Source of the DNA: an uncultured bacterium
GTDB lineage: Bacteria > Planctomycetota > UBA1135 > GCA-002686595
Length of the DNA: 64,000 nt
Direction: 5' to 3'
NCBI GenBank assembly: GCA_938083085.1
Contig: CALLKX010000048.1
Location: 1-64,000, forward strand
Made by a program: the position numbers and the translations under genes. The notes beneath the pieces were generated by a model. It was not told where the DNA came from and searched no databases. It was given only the letters and a program-made list of their open reading frames with translations. Numbering within the stretch: position 1 is the stretch's first letter; each line of letters begins with the position of its first letter. This document shows positions 1 to 10,405 of the stretch, piece by piece.

Positions 1-1646
1 CCGAGGAGCACCAGCGCTCGTGCGCGCAGCACGAGCGCGAGCACGGGCCGGTACAGCCGGAGGAGGACTCTGGCCAAAGGTCCGTGCCCGCCCGCGTCCG
101 AGGCCGGGCCGGCCCCGCGCAGGAGCAGACGGCAGAGGGCCGGGGTGACCGTCAACGCCACGGCGAGGGAGGCGAGCAGCGCGACCACGAAGGTGGCTCC
201 GAGCGGGCGGAAGAACTTGCCCTCGAGACCCTCCAAGAACATGAGCGGCAGAAACGCCAGGGCGAGGATAAAGGTGGCCTGGACCATGGCGGGCCGGATC
301 TCTCCGGTCGCCGAGATGACCACATCGGGGACCGCGCGACGTTCACCGTCGGGCCGCGCGCGGTTGATCCGTAGACGCCGCAGGACGTTCTCCACGTCGA
401 TGATCGCGTCGTCCACGAGCACTCCGATGGCGATGGCCATGCCGCCCAGCGTCATCACGTCGAGACCTCCACCTGTGGCGCCCAGCCAGAGCGCCGTGAT
501 CCCGAGCGAGAGCGGCAGTGCACAGAGGGCGATGAGGGCGGTGCGCAGGTTGAGCAGGAACGCCAGGAGCACCGCGCTCACGACCACCGCCGCCTCGAAG
601 GCCACGGCCCGTACCCGCGCCACGGCTCGCTCGATGAATGACGCATGCCGCGCGAAGCGCGCGTCAATACGCGCGCCGCGGGGCGGGCTCGAGCCGGCGA
701 GGACCTCGTCCACCGCCGCCGTCACGTCGAGGGTGTTGGTCCCGGGGGCCTTGGTCACCCCGAGGATCACCGCCGAAACGGCGCTTGCAGGGGCACCTTG
801 GCTCCCAAGGGCGACCGCCGCACTCCCCCGGCGCGGAGCGCCCTGGATCGCGATCTCCGCCACGTCGGAGACTCGCACCGGACGGCTTCCCCCCGTCCTC
901 AGCACCGCTGAGGCGAGGTCGGCCTCGCTCTCCACGCGCGCACGCTGCGCCACCTCGAGCTCGCGGCCCGCGTCATCCGGCAGGTACCCGCTGCTCCCGG
1001 TACTGTGGGCTCTCCCCACGGCCTCCGCGAGTTCACCGAGGGAGACATCGAAGGCCCGCATGGAGCTTTGGTCAGCGATGACCGCCAGCTCCGGCAGCCT
1101 CCCCCCCATGACCGAGATCTGCGCGACGCCGGGAACCGAGAGCAGCCGCGGGCGAAGCTCAAACTCTGCCCAGGCTCGCAGCTCGAGCCCGGCGGGGTCC
1201 TCCTGGGTCGCCACCAGGGTGACCTGGACGATCTCACCGGTGAGCGAGGCCTCGGGGCCCATGGCCGGGATCAGGCCCGGCGGGAGGTCACGCGCCACGG
1301 TGGTCAGCCGCTCGGCGACCCGCTGACGCGCGGCCTCGATGGGCGCACCGTCCTCGAAGTCCACGTAGGTGATCGACAGTCCGCTGACGCTTGAGGAGCG
1401 CACCCGGTCCACGCCACGGGCGCCCAGCATGGCGCGCTCCACCGGCATGGTCACCAGACGCTCAACCTCCTCCGTCGCGAGGCCGGGCGCCTCGGTCATC
1501 ACCGTCACCCGGGTGCCCTCGAGGTCCGGGAAGACATCCACCGGCAGTCGGGCCAAGGCGCCCAGCGCCACGGCGAGGAGGCCAAGCGCGACTGCGACCA
1601 CCGCCGCCGCGTTGCGTACGCAGACCGTGACCAGCGAGGTCAGCAT
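1..1646 (-). CDS. CusA/CzcA-type heavy-metal RND efflux transporter, N-terminal part (continues beyond window start)
   Basis: Minus-strand translation from ATG at 1646 reads MLTSLVTVCVRNAAAVVAVALGLLAVALGALARLPVDVFPDLEGTRVTVMTEAPGLATEEVERLVTMPVERA..., then ...GGLDVMTLGGMAIAIGVLVDDAIIDVENVLRRL, the RND TM4/IDVEN motif. No stop before the window edge, so it is missing from the ORF track. ATGA overlap with the upstream adaptor gene. Confidence 0.93.
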   Translation of the reverse strand, partial: MLTSLVTVCVRNAAAVVAVALGLLAVALGALARLPVDVFPDLEGTRVTVMTEAPGLATEEVERLVTMPVERAMLGARGVDRVRSSSVSGLSITYVDFEDGAPIEAARQRVAERLTTVARDLPPGLIPAMGPEASLTGEIVQVTLVATQEDPAGLELRAWAEFELRPRLLSVPGVAQISVMGGRLPELAVIADQSSMRAFDVSLGELAEAVGRAHSTGSSGYLPDDAGRELEVAQRARVESEADLASAVLRTGGSRPVRVSDVAEIAIQGAPRRGSAAVALGSQGAPASAVSAVILGVTKAPGTNTLDVTAAVDEVLAGSSPPRGARIDARFARHASFIERAVARVRAVAFEAAVVVSAVLLAFLLNLRTALIALCALPLSLGITALWLGATGGGLDVMTLGGMAIAIGVLVDDAIIDVENVLRRLRINRARPDGERRAVPDVVISATGEIRPAMVQATFILALAFLPLMFLEGLEGKFFRPLGATFVVALLASLAVALTVTPALCRLLLRGAGPASDAGGHGPLARVLLRLYRPVLALVLRARALVLL

Positions 1647-3364
1647 CAGTCTTCCTCGGCGTGGAACGTACCGTCAGCGTGGAAGTGTCCGCCGCTCTGG
1701 ATGGCTCCCTGGGCGGCGAGGCCGAGGCGGCCTGCGCCCCTGGCGACCACGCGATTCCCCGGCTCGATCGGGCTCTCCACGAAGGTCCACTCCGGGCCCT
1801 CCTCGATCACGGTGACCGCCACGGCGATCAACTCCATTGTCGTCGCAGGATTCTCCACCCAGACGATGCGCTCTGCCCCGTCTCGGCGGAGCGCCGCGGT
1901 GGGCACCGCCAGGCGTGACGAGGGAACGAGGTTCGAGACCGTCGGTTCGACGCCAGGGGCCAGCGAAGCCGCGGCGCGCTCGAGACTCGCCGCCACGCGG
2001 GTCCGCGCCTCCTCCGCCACCACACCGGCCTCGAAGGTCACCGTGACCACCGAGCTGCCGCTCGAGCTTGTCGAGGCCGTCCCAGCGACCCCGCCGCTCC
2101 TCGCCAGCGCGTCCTCGAGGGGGCGGCCCACCAGCTCCTCCACCTGCTCCGCCGAGAGCCCCTCCGCCGAGGTGGTGACCTCGACGCTCGGACCGGGTGC
2201 TGGAATCGACACGATCACGGAGAGCCCCGGGCGCGCCCAGAGCGGCGCGGCAGCGCCGCTGAAGAACGCGAAGACCTCTGCGCTGCGCTCGCGCGCGTCG
2301 GCGGTCAGCCCGGAGCGGAGGGTCGCCGCCACCGCGCCGCCCGTCCCGCTCGCAGAGCGAACCTGAACCCGCGAGCCCTCGGTGAGGCGCGAGAGATCCG
2401 CCTGGAACACCGCGCCCCTCACCTGAACCGCGCCGCGCCGCCGCACGCGCACGACGGGGTCCCCTGCCTCGGCCCACGCGCCGTCCGTGGTCTCGAGGGA
2501 CAGGACCTGGCCGGGCCGCTGCGCGCGCACCTCGATGCGGTCGATGGTCCACCAGCTCCGCCCGTCGCCATCGTCCCCCACGACCACCGCGCCGTCGCCG
2601 CCGATGAGCTCAGCCACGGGGACGCCGGTGAGCGTCGCCGCCCTTGCCAGGAGGGACTCCCTGCGGGCCTCGGCTGACGTGCGACTCGCGAGCCGCTCGG
2701 CCCGATCCACGGCCAAGCGGGCCCCGACCTCCTGGGCCTCCGCCAGCCGAGCACGGGCGTCCAGCAGGGACGCCTGAGCGTTGACCAGCGCCGCCGCCTG
2801 GCCACCACCCGCATCCCGGATCGCGTCCAGTTGCTTGAGCCGATCCGACCAGCGCCCCTCAAGGGCCGACAGCGCCTCCTCGTGCCGATGATGCGCGAGC
2901 TCGAGGTGCTGCGCCTCTTCGAACCATGCCACGTGTCCCTCCAGCTCGGCACGGACCGCCGCGAGCTCCGCCTGCAGCGAACGCCACGAGGGCGCGTCGA
3001 TACGGAACAGCAGCTCGCCCTCCCCGACCTCGCTGAGGGGGAGCGCCACGACCTCGACCCTGCCGTCGAGGGGGGCGGCGGCCACCTGCAGGGCATCAAA
3101 GGCGGGCTCGACCGCACCCGGGAACTCGAGCAGCGGGCCCCGCCCGCGGAGCTCCGCCTCCACGAGCACCAGCCCCAACGCCTCTCGCCCCTCCGCGTTC
3201 AGCAGCATGGACCGAGCCCCGCCGGGCTTCACCTCCTCGCCGTGGTCATGTGCAGCGTCGTTCGCGTGATCGGTGGAGGCCGGCGCCCCGCCGCCACAGG
3301 ACGCGGCGAGGAGCAGACAGAGGGCGAGGGTGCGCCCCTTGGGTGGGTCCAGTTGCATCATCAC
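1646..3364 (-). CDS. RND efflux periplasmic adaptor (MFP) lipoprotein with His-rich termini and an embedded RND-porter-like segment
   Basis: Lipobox-like N-terminus (LLLAASCGGG), hairpin/lipoyl/beta-barrel organisation, LAVPTAALRRDGAERIVWV motif, located between TolC-like and CusA genes. HANDAAHDHGEE and GGHFHADGTFHAEED are His-rich. See finding on residues ~392-480. Confidence 0.88.
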   Translation of the reverse strand: MMMQLDPPKGRTLALCLLLAASCGGGAPASTDHANDAAHDHGEEVKPGGARSMLLNAEGREALGLVLVEAELRGRGPLLEFPGAVEPAFDALQVAAAPLDGRVEVVALPLSEVGEGELLFRIDAPSWRSLQAELAAVRAELEGHVAWFEEAQHLELAHHRHEEALSALEGRWSDRLKQLDAIRDAGGGQAAALVNAQASLLDARARLAEAQEVGARLAVDRAERLASRTSAEARRESLLARAATLTGVPVAELIGGDGAVVVGDDGDGRSWWTIDRIEVRAQRPGQVLSLETTDGAWAEAGDPVVRVRRRGAVQVRGAVFQADLSRLTEGSRVQVRSASGTGGAVAATLRSGLTADARERSAEVFAFFSGAAAPLWARPGLSVIVSIPAPGPSVEVTTSAEGLSAEQVEELVGRPLEDALARSGGVAGTASTSSSGSSVVTVTFEAGVVAEEARTRVAASLERAAASLAPGVEPTVSNLVPSSRLAVPTAALRRDGAERIVWVENPATTMELIAVAVTVIEEGPEWTFVESPIEPGNRVVARGAGRLGLAAQGAIQSGGHFHADGTFHAEED

Positions 3365-4656
3365 TCTTGCTCCTCGTTCGTTCCGTGCGGCGCGTGAAGC
3401 GCCGCGAGTTCCATGCGCGCCACCAGCTCCTCACCGAGGAGCTGGAGTCGTTCGAGCTCGGCGGCCTGGCGCCGCTCCATGGCATCCACCAGCAGGAAGG
3501 GGCGGAGGTCGCCCAGGGCCAGGAGCTCGGAGAGAATGGACTCCTGCTCCAGCGCCAGCGGAAGGAGGCCCTGCTCGACCGGCGCGCGCCGGCCGCGGGC
3601 CGAGCGCATGGCACGGCGCACGCGCTCCTCGCGCTCAAGGGCGCGCTCGAAGGCGAGCTCATAGGCCTGGGCCGCGACCTCCCTTCGGGCGACGGCCTGG
3701 GCCAGGGCGCCGAGGCCGCGGTTCCACAGAGGGATCGGGATCTGGAGTCCGAAGAGGACCCGCCTCCCGCCCCCCTCACGGCCGGCTCCCGCCCCCAGGC
3801 TCGGCTCGATGAAGCGGGCCCGGTGGGCCACGTTGACCGCGGCCTCCGCGACCTCGAACGCCGCAGCTGCAGCGACCAGCTCAGGCAGCTCCCTGCTGAC
3901 GGTCCCCTCCGGCTCGCCGGCGTTGTCCTCGATCATGAGGGGCTCGAAGGCGACAGGCCCGCCACCGCGCAGCCCAAGGGCGTGCAGCATCCTGAGCTCC
4001 AGGTCCTGCGCCCGCTGGCTCGCCGCGACCGCGCGGCGCTCTGCGTCGATGCGCGCGAGCCGCAGGAGCCCGCTCTCCACCGTCCCGAGGTTGCCGGTCT
4101 CCACGAGGACCTCGATCCGCTTGAGGGGCCCGGCGAGGTCCTCGGCCAAGGTCCGGTTGGAGCGCTCTTCCGCGAGCGCAACGGTCCAGGCCACCCAGTC
4201 CGCCTCGAGGCTCCGCGCCCGCTCGAAGACCAGCCGCTCCGCCCGGGCCACCGCGAGACGGGCCTGGGCGTCCAGCCGACTCGCCAGCGCGTGCTGCCGG
4301 CCGGCGATGGCCAGCGGGACCTGGATCAGCACATCGAGCTCGTCGAGGGCCCCGCTGGAGAGGGCGTTCGCGAGGTCCAAGTTCAGCGTCGGGTCCGGCC
4401 AGAGCCCGGCGTGCTCTCTTCCCGCAAGGGCGGGGAGCTCCCTGGCAAAGGCGAGCTGAAGCTCCGGGTCGAGCACCGGGAGCAGCTCCCTCGCCTGCTT
4501 GAGGGTGAGCCCGCCCGAGGTGGGGATCTCGACGCGGGCCTCACGGAGGTCCCGGCGCTCGGCGATCCAGTCGAGATCGACCGGTCGCGGCGGGGGCGCG
4601 GCGCAGCACGGGAGCGCGGCGAGCAGCAGGAGTGAAGCGCGGGAGCGGAGTCGCAC
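3361..4656 (-). CDS. TolC/CusC-family outer membrane efflux lipoprotein
   Basis: Lipoprotein signal (LLLLAALPCCAAP), long helical TolC-like regions (GLTLKQARELLPVLDPELQLAFARELPALAGREHAGLWPDPTLNLDLANAL), overlaps adaptor start. Confidence 0.85.
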   Translation of the reverse strand: MRLRSRASLLLLAALPCCAAPPPRPVDLDWIAERRDLREARVEIPTSGGLTLKQARELLPVLDPELQLAFARELPALAGREHAGLWPDPTLNLDLANALSSGALDELDVLIQVPLAIAGRQHALASRLDAQARLAVARAERLVFERARSLEADWVAWTVALAEERSNRTLAEDLAGPLKRIEVLVETGNLGTVESGLLRLARIDAERRAVAASQRAQDLELRMLHALGLRGGGPVAFEPLMIEDNAGEPEGTVSRELPELVAAAAAFEVAEAAVNVAHRARFIEPSLGAGAGREGGGRRVLFGLQIPIPLWNRGLGALAQAVARREVAAQAYELAFERALEREERVRRAMRSARGRRAPVEQGLLPLALEQESILSELLALGDLRPFLLVDAMERRQAAELERLQLLGEELVARMELAALHAPHGTNEEQE

Positions 4657-4749: not shown

Positions 4750-5223
4750 TCAACGAAGGACCTGGACCGTCACGCGGTGTCGCAACGCGGCGCTCCGCGA
4801 GGGTGGAGCCGCTCGTGGCGGCGCGCGGCGACGCGCGCGCCTCGGTGCCTCCGATGGGCTTGTCCACCGGGCGAGGCTCGACTCCGCGGCCTCTGCGGTC
4901 AGCGATGCGAAACACTTCCCCCCCTCGAGGTCCACCGGCAGAGCCTCCTCCGCCACCAGCTCAAGGTCCACGCACACCTCCGAGTCGAGCGGCGCGCCAG
5001 GCTCATCCGGGGCCGCCGGGAGGTCGCTCTTGGGATCCTCTGCATGGTGACCGCAGCCACAGCTGGTCTCGGCAGGGGTCGCATCCCGACCGCCGGGGAT
5101 CCCCAGGCAAAGCTCTACGCCGCCCACGGGCGCCATGGCGGCGAAGGCCTGCAGGAGGAGCAGCAGAGGTGCGATGAGACGAAGCATCTCTTTGTTTTTC
5201 GGCTTCACGCCGCCCCCGGTCAA
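4750..5223 (-). CDS. Small exported Cys/His-containing protein upstream of metal efflux operon
   Basis: Signal-like N-terminus LRLIAPLLLLLQAFAAMAPVGG followed by ELCLGIPGG...ETSCGCGHHAED...SEVCVDLELV; same strand as and directly upstream of the efflux genes. Exact start uncertain. Confidence 0.6.
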   Translation of the reverse strand: MTGGGVKPKNKEMLRLIAPLLLLLQAFAAMAPVGGVELCLGIPGGRDATPAETSCGCGHHAEDPKSDLPAAPDEPGAPLDSEVCVDLELVAEEALPVDLEGGKCFASLTAEAAESSLARWTSPSEAPRRARRRAPPRAAPPSRSAALRHRVTVQVLR

Positions 5224-5371: not shown

Positions 5372-7864
5372 TCAGCGGCCGATGCGCTTCGCCCGCACGA
5401 AGTTGGTCAGGATCCGGAAGACAGAGGTGTCGAAGACCTCGGCCGAGGCGGCGGAGGTGGACTTCCACCACTTCTCCTCCCCCAGCGTCCGCAGCTGGAG
5501 CGGCTTCAGCCCCATGTGGTTCACCGCGAAGGCCTGCCGGTCGATGGGCTTCTTCAGCCCGGTCGCCGCGCTGAACCCCTGCTCCTCGAAGTGGTTCGCC
5601 GTATCGAGCACCGTGCCGTGTCCCATGCGGAACCAGGCTGCCAGGTCGCCGGACCCGTGCTTGGTGGCGGCGCTGGGGCTGTCGAGCAGGACCTCGACGC
5701 GCTCTGGATCAAGGACCTTGATCAGGTGCGCGCCAACGAGGCTGTAGTAGGGCTGCACGCCGCCATCGAACACGCCGCGCAGGAAGGGTGACGCGGCCCC
5801 CGCACGGGTCGGGACGGCGTACACGTTGTCCATCACCTCCTGCGGCCAGGGGAACTTCGCCACCAGCGCAGGGAAGCTCCGCTGCACCGTGTTCGTCAGG
5901 GACCAGCAGGAGGTGAAGAGCGCACCGCCGGAACGGACGAACCAGCGGACGGCCTCCACGTCGGCGGGCGCGATCTCTCCGGTGCACCCGACCATGAGGA
6001 TCGCGCCGGGGTGAAGCCGGGACGCCTGCACCCGCCCCGCGGGCGCGATGCGGAACTTGATGCCGAGGCGCTTCAGCACCTTCTCGATGTGATCTCCGCG
6101 ACCCGGAATCACGATCACATCCAGGCCCTGGTAGATCGCCGCCTCGTTCACGCTGTACCCGTAGCGCTTCTGGAGATCACGCTGCTCGGCCTTCGTCCGG
6201 AAGGTGGCGCGCTTCGCGTTCTCTTCCCACCACGCCGGCCAGTCCTCGGGCTTCATCACCATGCCGCTGCGTCCGGAGAACGCGAGGAGCGCGCGGTGGG
6301 CCGTCTCCACGACGCAGGAGTGCTCGTCCTTCAGGGCCGCGAGCAGCGGCGCCACGCAGCCAGGCCGTGAGAGCTGGGCCATGCCCTCCGCCGCGGACGC
6401 TCGGAGCTGCCACTGCTCGGAGCTCAGGAGCAGCTTCAGGGGCTCGAGGGCCGCGTCCGAACGAGTTCGCCCGAGCGCCACGGCTGCGGAGGTCGTGAGC
6501 GCCGGACCAGGATCTCCGGCGATGAACGCGACCAGCGCCGCCACCACCGGCGGCGCAGCCTCCGGTTGACCGAGGGCCACGGAAACGGCTTCCAGAACGC
6601 GCTCGCTGGCGCCGCCCTCGAGGAGCTCCAGGAGGGTCAACGCCGAGGGCTCGAGGGCGTCACGCTCGGCGCCGACCGTGAGGTCGACCGTGCCCGCGAG
6701 CAGCCCCACGAGCTGGAGCTGGACGCGGGCGTCCAACTCGCCGCCGAGGGCCTCCTCGGCGACGCGGCTGCCCACCTCGCCGAGGCTCCCCATGGCGTGC
6801 GCGGCCGCCGCTCGGGTCGGCACGTCCTCGGACCTGAGCAGCCGCTCCAGCCAGGGGCCAGCGCTCTCGGCGTCGACGGTCCCCGCGCCGAGGACCCGCG
6901 CCAGCCGCGGCCCGGCCTCGAGGGCGCCCGCGATGGGCTCCCCCCGCTCACCCTCGAAGCAGGCGACGAGGAAGCTCCGCGCGTCCGCCGGGGACATGGA
7001 CCGAAGGGCTCCGGCGAGGGCGCTCTCCAGCCGGCGCTCGATGACCGCCGGCAGGCCCATCGCCGCCAGCGCAGGACGAAGCACCACGGCATCCTCCGGC
7101 GTCGGTGCCTCGGAGACCGCGTCGAGCGCCGCACAGACGATGGCGATGTCCCGCGGCTCGTCGAGCCGCTCCAGCACGAGGTCCTTTAGGGCCTCCGTTC
7201 GGACGGGACCTGCGCCCCGGGCCACGGAGACCATCGCTCGCGCCGCAGCGGGGCCGTCGACTGACTCCTTGGACTTCAGCCCCTTCGACAGTCTCTTCAC
7301 GTTCTTCGCCGCCGCCTTGGCCTCCATCCCGGGGGCGGTAGCAGAGGCCTCCACGCAGCAGGCGAGGGCCGTCGCGGCGACGAAGAAGGTCTTGCCCGAG
7401 CACTTCTTCAGCAGCGCAGCCGCGGCCGAACCATCGGTGCAGCCGCCGAGCAATCGCGCCGCGGAGATGCGCGCCTCCGTGAAGGGGGACTCCAGCGCGA
7501 CCTCGACCATTCCCTTCGTGATCGCCTTGTTGACCGGACGCCCCTCGAGGCCGCGGATCGCCGTGAGCACGACGAGCAGGTCCTCGTCACTGCGGGCCGC
7601 CTTCACCAGCGCCGCCTCGGCCTTCGGCGAGGCGTCCCCGGCGAGGTCGAGGGCCGCGCCCTGCCGGTCGGACGGGTCCTTGGAACGGATGTTCTTCAGG
7701 GCGTCCGATTGCGGAGCGGTCGCAGGGGCCGTGGCGACCTGCTGCCCGCCGGGCCACAGCTCCGCCGGGGAGTCCGCGGCGTGTCCGCGAACCGGGGTGA
7801 GGAGCCACGCAGCGGCGCAGAATGTGGCAAACAGGCGCACCTCGGTTCGTTGTCGTTGCTCCAT
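5372..7864 (-). CDS. Exported HEAT-repeat protein with C-terminal GATase/ThuA-like domain
   Basis: Signal peptide, many helical HEAT-like repeats (e.g. AALVAFIAGDPGPALTTSAAVALGRTRSDAALEPLKLLLSSEQWQLRASAAEGMAQL), then alpha/beta segment VIVIPGRGDHIEKVLKRLGIKF...GAILMVGCTGEIAPADVEAVRWFVRSGGALFTSCWSL. Confidence 0.75.
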   Translation of the reverse strand: MEQRQRTEVRLFATFCAAAWLLTPVRGHAADSPAELWPGGQQVATAPATAPQSDALKNIRSKDPSDRQGAALDLAGDASPKAEAALVKAARSDEDLLVVLTAIRGLEGRPVNKAITKGMVEVALESPFTEARISAARLLGGCTDGSAAAALLKKCSGKTFFVAATALACCVEASATAPGMEAKAAAKNVKRLSKGLKSKESVDGPAAARAMVSVARGAGPVRTEALKDLVLERLDEPRDIAIVCAALDAVSEAPTPEDAVVLRPALAAMGLPAVIERRLESALAGALRSMSPADARSFLVACFEGERGEPIAGALEAGPRLARVLGAGTVDAESAGPWLERLLRSEDVPTRAAAAHAMGSLGEVGSRVAEEALGGELDARVQLQLVGLLAGTVDLTVGAERDALEPSALTLLELLEGGASERVLEAVSVALGQPEAAPPVVAALVAFIAGDPGPALTTSAAVALGRTRSDAALEPLKLLLSSEQWQLRASAAEGMAQLSRPGCVAPLLAALKDEHSCVVETAHRALLAFSGRSGMVMKPEDWPAWWEENAKRATFRTKAEQRDLQKRYGYSVNEAAIYQGLDVIVIPGRGDHIEKVLKRLGIKFRIAPAGRVQASRLHPGAILMVGCTGEIAPADVEAVRWFVRSGGALFTSCWSLTNTVQRSFPALVAKFPWPQEVMDNVYAVPTRAGAASPFLRGVFDGGVQPYYSLVGAHLIKVLDPERVEVLLDSPSAATKHGSGDLAAWFRMGHGTVLDTANHFEEQGFSAATGLKKPIDRQAFAVNHMGLKPLQLRTLGEEKWWKSTSAASAEVFDTSVFRILTNFVRAKRIGR

Positions 7865-8209: not shown

Positions 8210-10405
8210 ATGACGGCCACGACCCGCCAGGAAGCGGTCCGCTCCATCGCGAGCGACGCGTTCCTCGATCTCCGCGAAGACATCTCCGGTCTTGAGGGTC
8301 AGTCCCTCTCCGACTCGTTCGGTCGCTACGTCTTCAGTGACGATGTGCAGCGCCAGACCCTGCCCGAGCCCATCTATCAGGCGCTTCGCAAGACCATCGA
8401 GACGGGGTCCAAGCTCGACCTTGAGATCGCGGACGAGGTCGCCCTCGCCATGAAGACCTGGGCGGTCGGCCACGGCGCGACGCACTACACCCATTGGTTC
8501 CAGCCCATGACCGGGCTCACCGCCGAGAAGCACGACTCCTTCCTGAAGCCGACCGGCTCGGGCGGCGCGATGCTCGAGTTCTCGGGCCAACAGCTCAGCC
8601 AGGGTGAGCCAGACGCCTCCAGCTTCCCCTCGGGCGGCCTCCGCGCCACCTTCGAGGCCCGCGGCTACACGGCCTGGGACCCGACCTCTCCGGCCTTCGT
8701 CCGCAAGTCCGCCAGCGGTGCGACCCTGTGTATCCCCACGGCCTTCTGCTCGTGGACCGGCGAGGCGCTCGACAAGAAGACCCCGCTCCTCCGCTCCTGC
8801 GAGGCCATCTCCCGCGCCGCCGTTCGCCTCCTCAGGACGATCGGCGAGTCCTCTGTGACCCGCGTCTCCCCCACGACCGGCGTGGAGCAGGAGTACTTCC
8901 TCGTTGACCGGCAGTTCTTCCACCTGCGCCCTGACCTGATGGCCACGGGCCGCACCCTGTTCGGCGCGATGCCGTACAAGGGACAGGAGTTCGACGACCA
9001 CTACTTCGGCTCCATCTCGGGCCGGGTCCTCGACTTCATGCGCGACCTCGAGAAGGAGCTCTGGCTCCTCGGGGTGCCGCTCATGACCCGGCACAACGAG
9101 GTGGCGCCCAGCCAGTTCGAGCTCGCCCCCCAGTACTCCGGTGTGTCGGTCTCGATCGACCAGAACATGCTCACCATGAGCGTGCTGAATGACGTTGCCG
9201 AGCGGCACGGGCTCGCGGTCCTCATGCACGAGAAGCCGTACGCCAACTTCAACGGCTCCGGCAAGCACATGAACTGGTCCATCGGCGACGACCTGGGCCA
9301 CAACCTCCTCGAGCCCGGCAATACGCCCCACGAGAACCTCAAGTTCATGATGACGCTCACGTCCATCGTGCGCGCCGTGGACATGCACCAGGACCTGCTG
9401 AGGGCCTCGATCGCCTCCGCGGGGAACGACCACCGCCTCGGCGCCAACGAGGCGCCGCCCGCCATCATCTCGATCTTCCTCGGCTCGCAGCTCACCGAGG
9501 TCATCAACGCGATGATCGAGGGGCGCGACCCGGCGAACTCGGGCAAGGGCTCGCTCCGGCTCGGGGTCGACGCCCTGCCGGAGCTGCCCCAGGACATCAC
9601 GGACCGCAACCGGACCTCGCCGTTCGCCTTCACGGGCAACAAGTTCGAGTTCCGCGCGGTGGGCTCAGGCCAGTCCGTGGCGTACCCCGCAGCGTTCGTC
9701 AACACGATCGTCGCCGAGTCCATGGAGTTCATCTGCGATGAGCTCGAGGCCCGCGGCGGCGCCAACGCCGAGAACATCAACGCGGTCGTTCGAGAGACCC
9801 TCGCCAAGCACCAGCGCGTGATCTTCGACGGGGACAACTACTCCGACGAGTGGGTCGCCGAGGCAGAGAAGCGCGGGCTCCTGAACCGGCGCACGACGCC
9901 CGAGGCGCTCGTGGCGCTCTCCGACGAGAAGAACACCGCGCTCTTCGAGCGCTTCGGTGTGCTCACCTCGCACGAGCTGGAGTCGCGGGCCAACGTGAGC
10001 AATGAGATCTACGCCTCGAAGATCCGCGTGGAGGCCCTCGCGACCATCGACATGGCGCAGACGATGATCCTCCCGGCCGCCTCGGCGTTCCAATCTCAGC
10101 TCTCCGAGACCATCCGAGGAGTGCGCGCGGTCGATGAGTCGATCCCGACAGGCGCACAGGTCGAGGCGCTGCACTGCACCGCCTCCGGCGCCACGGCGCT
10201 TCAGGCCGCGGTGAACGCGCTCTCCGATGCGCTCGCCAAGGTCGAGGGCGCGGGACATGGTGAGGCGGAGCACGCTGAGGCCATGCTGAACGAGGTCATC
10301 CCCCAGATGGAGAAGGTCCGCTCGGCAGCCGACGGTCTCGAGAAGGTCGTGGACGACGACCTCTGGCCGCTCCCGAAGTACCGCGAGCTGATGTTCATCC
10401 GCTGA
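8210..10405 (+). CDS. glnN: Type III glutamine synthetase (GSIII)
   Basis: 731 aa; THWFQPMTGLTAEKHDSF, GGLRATFEARGYTAWD, VGVEQEYFLV-like, EVAPSQFELAP, GSGKHMNWSIG, AGNDHRLGANEAPPAIISIFLG are hallmark GSIII motifs. Confidence 0.97.
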   Translation: MTATTRQEAVRSIASDAFLDLREDISGLEGQSLSDSFGRYVFSDDVQRQTLPEPIYQALRKTIETGSKLDLEIADEVALAMKTWAVGHGATHYTHWFQPMTGLTAEKHDSFLKPTGSGGAMLEFSGQQLSQGEPDASSFPSGGLRATFEARGYTAWDPTSPAFVRKSASGATLCIPTAFCSWTGEALDKKTPLLRSCEAISRAAVRLLRTIGESSVTRVSPTTGVEQEYFLVDRQFFHLRPDLMATGRTLFGAMPYKGQEFDDHYFGSISGRVLDFMRDLEKELWLLGVPLMTRHNEVAPSQFELAPQYSGVSVSIDQNMLTMSVLNDVAERHGLAVLMHEKPYANFNGSGKHMNWSIGDDLGHNLLEPGNTPHENLKFMMTLTSIVRAVDMHQDLLRASIASAGNDHRLGANEAPPAIISIFLGSQLTEVINAMIEGRDPANSGKGSLRLGVDALPELPQDITDRNRTSPFAFTGNKFEFRAVGSGQSVAYPAAFVNTIVAESMEFICDELEARGGANAENINAVVRETLAKHQRVIFDGDNYSDEWVAEAEKRGLLNRRTTPEALVALSDEKNTALFERFGVLTSHELESRANVSNEIYASKIRVEALATIDMAQTMILPAASAFQSQLSETIRGVRAVDESIPTGAQVEALHCTASGATALQAAVNALSDALAKVEGAGHGEAEHAEAMLNEVIPQMEKVRSAADGLEKVVDDDLWPLPKYRELMFIR

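Follow-up and report, generated by a model that had tools for sequence, protein, structure and literature searches.

The periplasmic adaptor of an RND exporter operon in an uncultured planctomycete carries, within its beta-barrel, a PN1 porter subdomain of an RND pump. Taking anatomy and history together, it is nearly certain that this insert is an old PN1 duplication that now constitutes an accessory domain of the adaptor. The operon lies at the start of the window, the stretch of 64,000 nucleotides that was analyzed, and includes the following features.

1..1646, minus strand: N-terminal half of the partner RND pump (CusA/CzcA-type), which has its own PN1
1646..3364, minus strand: gene of the RND periplasmic adaptor, 572 aa if started at the GTG at 3364 (Pfam HlyD_D23, HlyD_3)
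1649..1909, minus strand: final strand of the barrel (AVPTAAL), followed by the membrane-proximal domain and a C-terminal tail rich in His, aa 486-572, aligning to all homologues that have no insert
1910..2203, minus strand: inserted PN1 porter subdomain with linkers, about aa 388-485, core aa 392-480 (ACR_tran match, fold model, homologue alignment)
2204..2434, minus strand: beta-barrel segment preceding the insert, aa 311-387 (by alignment), its final strand corresponding approximately to AcrA pump-binding box 5 (box mapped by hand)
3361..4656, minus strand: outer-membrane factor, TolC-like (Pfam OEP)

The inserted domain and its operon

The adaptor gene is flanked by the OEP gene upstream and the ACR_tran pump gene downstream, and the genes overlap. 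TGATG overlaps occur at window positions 3359-3363 (TolC-adaptor) and 1644-1648 (adaptor-pump), where the pump start codon overlaps the adaptor stop codon, suggesting translational coupling. The ATG at 3361 (571 aa), which overlaps the TolC stop codon in this manner, is a likelier adaptor start than the GTG at 3364. The window copy of the pump is truncated by the contig start; the remaining half, located on contig C90, is 100% identical to the pump of genome G007. A small Cys/His-containing protein of 157 aa, likely exported as judged by eye, is encoded upstream of the TolC gene (4750-5223, minus strand); it has a 53% identical copy in G008, and no Pfam or NCBIfam match to it was found. An 830-aa HEAT-repeat protein (5372-7864, minus strand) is encoded next to the operon and is conserved at this place in the other four genomes with the insert.

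The adaptor itself matches the HlyD-family barrel-sandwich profiles above cut-offs (PF16576, E 1.3e-10; PF13437, E 1.2e-9) and has a long alpha-helical hairpin (predicted helices 125-184 and 190-246; pLDDT ~66-81 over most of the length). Adaptor residues 392-480, encoded by window positions 1925-2191 on the minus strand, align to the complete partner pump (P0003, taken from the near-identical genome G007) by BLASTP with 38 identities in 86 positions (44%; E 2e-12) and no gaps, matching the first-pass annotation, in which about 37 identities over ~85 ungapped positions had been counted by eye. A profile comparison agrees: Pfam ACR_tran matches the adaptor alongside HlyD_D23 and HlyD_3 (E 2.5e-15; profile positions 41-135 of 1021), and this match is above the cut-off also in adaptor orthologues. 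As the PN1 of AcrB extends over approximately residues 39-134, the insert corresponds to one whole PN1. Homologue alignment places it after the barrel strand GLSVIVSIPA and before the LAVP strand, where it had been located at first reading. By sequence, profile and predicted fold, the insert is the PN1 of an RND pump, and the initial proposal of a porter subdomain embedded in the adaptor thus holds.

Distribution, history and constraint

The insert is present in five genomes of one genus, which are separate assemblies and share gene order. In the four genomes other than the window's own, the search for orthologous adaptors recovered proteins 100, 80, 71, and 73% identical to the window adaptor; the adaptors of G000 and G007 are identical in sequence, and those of G008 and G002 show 80 and 71% identity. 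The G004 adaptor is split across two contigs, with the insert intact. Where contigs allow, the common order is a gene that extends the window ORF at position 8210 (glutamine synthetase-like by eye), the HEAT-repeat gene, TolC, adaptor, and pump, and a TolC-like gene adjoins the insert-bearing adaptor in the four genomes besides the window's own. An assembly chimera or gene-prediction artefact might be suspected because the draft genome is fragmented and the contig ends within the pump gene, but the same insert occurs at the same site with the same neighbours in four other separate assemblies, which rules out a chimera and leaves explanations of this kind a negligible probability.

Ordinary adaptors have no such segment, as the first-pass annotation had stated: all 25 aligned adaptor homologues, which come from the same genus, family, and order, carry ~7 residues at the insert site. 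Of the 154 genomes of the order, 5 gave a contiguous match from barrel through insert to C-terminal part (E 1e-20), all of them within the genus, and no further adaptor match spanning the insert region was found among the matches listed for 392 genomes of the phylum. Unusual candidates in G056, G341, G048, and G383 proved to be pumps, not adaptors. Within the genus, the insert is present in every one of the five genomes with this operon, and three others (G001, G005, and G006) encode a related pump, 48% identical, together with adaptors that lack the insert. A Caulobacteraceae operon with a related pump likewise has a short adaptor and no insert. Relatives on plasmids were not matched at E 1e-5, a threshold that would miss a distant independent case. 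As judged from these sequences, the insert is specific to one sub-group of a Planctomycetota genus.

In the tree, the four distinct inserts group together in a single clade (98/98) that excludes all pumps, and the identity of each insert to any of the four partner pumps is 31-40%. This monophyly and near-equal distance point to a single old copying event followed by divergence. The first-pass annotation had also considered the trace of a gene-conversion event; as an ongoing process, gene conversion is rejected on the same grounds.

The partner pump is plausibly the PN1 donor, an origin with which the data are compatible but which they do not prove. The best profile matches of the insert are the partner pumps and one Caulobacteraceae pump (about 54-60 bits), and in tree tests the AU p value is 0.33 for grouping with the own pump and 0.10 for grouping with other planctomycete pumps. 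A different RND pump as source, with the insert serving to bind a ligand or metal, is quite improbable. The Caulobacteraceae PN1, at 59 bits, scores as high as the partner pump, and the AU value for own-pump origin leaves room for such a donor, but the partner pump ties for best match and other pumps at the order level score lower. The insert contains no Cys, no His, and no conserved Met, and therefore no obvious metal site.

Identity among orthologues is 44-68% for the insert; the C-terminal part reaches 81-91% and the pump 92-94%. The insert is the fastest-evolving part of the adaptor, and that of G002 is just 44-48% identical to the others. The dN/dS ratio of the insert is 0.36-0.70, with a 95% bootstrap interval that lies below 1 in three of six pairs and includes 1 in the other three, indicating constraint, but of a weak kind. 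The hydrophobic core is mostly kept, with 32 positions invariant across the four inserts. These data bear on the possibility that the insert is a tolerated passenger, a harmless PN1 copy in a permissive loop that has no specific function and persists because in-frame loss is rare. The rapid evolution, the divergence of G002, the intervals that include 1, and the restriction to one sub-group would all fit, and this explanation is a serious one, if short of an even chance. The pairs with dN/dS clearly below 1 and the retention of the insert in every operon-bearing genome speak against it, as does the preservation of the core and predicted fold, although even a passenger would have to fold if it is not to harm the adaptor. 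The kept fold and the constraint together make a mild argument against a passenger.

Fold, position and possible roles

The insert was modelled with a pLDDT of 84 from an input of four adaptor rows and zero pump rows. Foldseek with this model returns RND pumps (CusA 3ne5: TM 0.85, 1.4 A, 88 columns), and the predicted fold is the standard porter-domain fold (PMC8277102). Sequence, fold prediction, and comparison support the view that each adaptor subunit carries the insert as an autonomously folding, ferredoxin-like domain. The model of the full-length adaptor, with a pLDDT of 51, is poor and leaves the inserted domain unplaced.

By hand alignment to what we take to be the AcrA sequence, the insert presumably takes the place of the loop between AcrA residues ~298 and ~305. 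In the same alignment, Phe292 and Arg294 of AcrA map before the insert, and Gln310 and Arg318 map after it. Mutations at these residues, which belong to box 5 (Phe292 and Arg294), pre-box 6 (Gln310), and box 6 (Arg318), impair efflux (PMC6975555). The adaptor barrel of AcrAB-TolC engages the funnel; contacts of the membrane-proximal domains are with DC and PC1, or with PN1 and DN (PMC13095208). The box mapping and these contacts together suggest that the insert springs from a barrel hairpin loop adjoining pump-contacting stretches.

The explanation tentatively preferred here, at somewhat under even odds, is that the insert is an accessory module for docking or assembly. The PN1 of a CusA/CzcA-type RND pump, plausibly encoded by the partner gene directly downstream, was almost certainly copied in frame into the beta-barrel hairpin loop of the adaptor in an ancestor shared by one sub-group of the genus. 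There, the domain would enlarge the surface through which the adaptor ring touches the pump or adjacent adaptors touch each other, and we infer that it is not a transport-active porter element. This explanation is supported by the identity of the insert as PN1, its fold match to CusA, the conserved gene order in five genomes, the dN/dS values below 1 in three of six pairs, the mostly kept core, and the site between boxes 5 and 6. It is weakened by the fast evolution of the insert relative to the rest of the adaptor and by the dependence of the box mapping on a hand alignment; a hairpin tip pointing away from the pump could also count against it. A docking or assembly role is ranked first, a tolerated passenger almost as likely, and a strict porter mimic or plug lower.

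The first-pass annotation had suggested a porter mimic or a regulatory plug besides a docking module. In its strict form, a porter mimic or regulatory plug would place the adaptor PN1 at a PN1-contacting site of the pump or over the funnel, thereby gating transport. The homology of the insert to PN1 favours such a role, as do the ability of adaptor membrane-proximal domains in AcrAB to touch PN1 and DN (PMC13095208) and the acceptance of an extra strand in trans by pump PN1 sheets (PMC8277102). All inserts retain thirteen of the positions whose conservation in the compared pumps is at least 80%. Several residues nearly invariant in the compared pump PN1s are changed in every one of the four inserts, among them those at 399, 430, 437, and 459, each 100% conserved in the pumps, and at 428 (94%), a loss that weakens the strict form. 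Nor does the pump show a compensating loss; it has just a short additional loop close to the PN2/DN junction. A strict mimic or plug is therefore unlikely. That the adaptor PN1 binds the porter surface of the pump, such that the exporter would be partly built from a porter element supplied in trans that controls assembly or transport, is rather doubtful.

The partner pump retains its own PN1. Its best family match is CusA/CzcA-like, but below the curated cut-off. At the positions of the CusA Met triad, which we take to be Met573, Met623, and Met672, it has Phe, Asn, and His (phmmer alignment to CusA, read by eye); with the triad absent, it does not qualify as a CusA-type Cu/Ag exporter. The Asp-rich TM4 motif VDDAIIDVEN is kept. 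The extra loop is clade-specific, comprises ~9 residues (frame residues ~287-295 of the L033 pump), and is absent from most relatives without the insert; it might serve the adaptor insert as a partner site.

Relation to known adaptors

Like CusB, CzcB, and ZneB (HlyD_D23, HlyD_3), the adaptor is encoded in the order TolC-adaptor-pump and has a helical hairpin, lipoyl and barrel regions, and a membrane-proximal C-terminal part; unlike them, it holds a PN1 of ~90 aa in the barrel hairpin loop, which the 25 aligned homologues do not have. Accessory domains are known on adaptors, N-terminal in CusB and C-terminal in SilB (PMC4446572). The present case resembles CusB and SilB in the addition of a small domain and differs in that the domain lies within the protein, not at an end, and stems from an RND pump. 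A limited open-access literature on fused or extra-domain adaptors, reviews included, yielded no adaptor that contains a pump subdomain. Unlike the PN1 of CusA and AcrB (ACR_tran), the insert is housed in another protein, has no transmembrane helices, and has lost several pump-invariant residues.

This adaptor, with its PN1 domain, is a variant of the RND adaptor, and the function proposed for the insert is putative. Adaptor and pump are separate proteins that need mutual recognition, and the insert amounts to a natural domain-insertion experiment beside their interface. The barrel loop next to the pump-binding stretches can hold a folded domain of ~90 residues across the divergence of several species.
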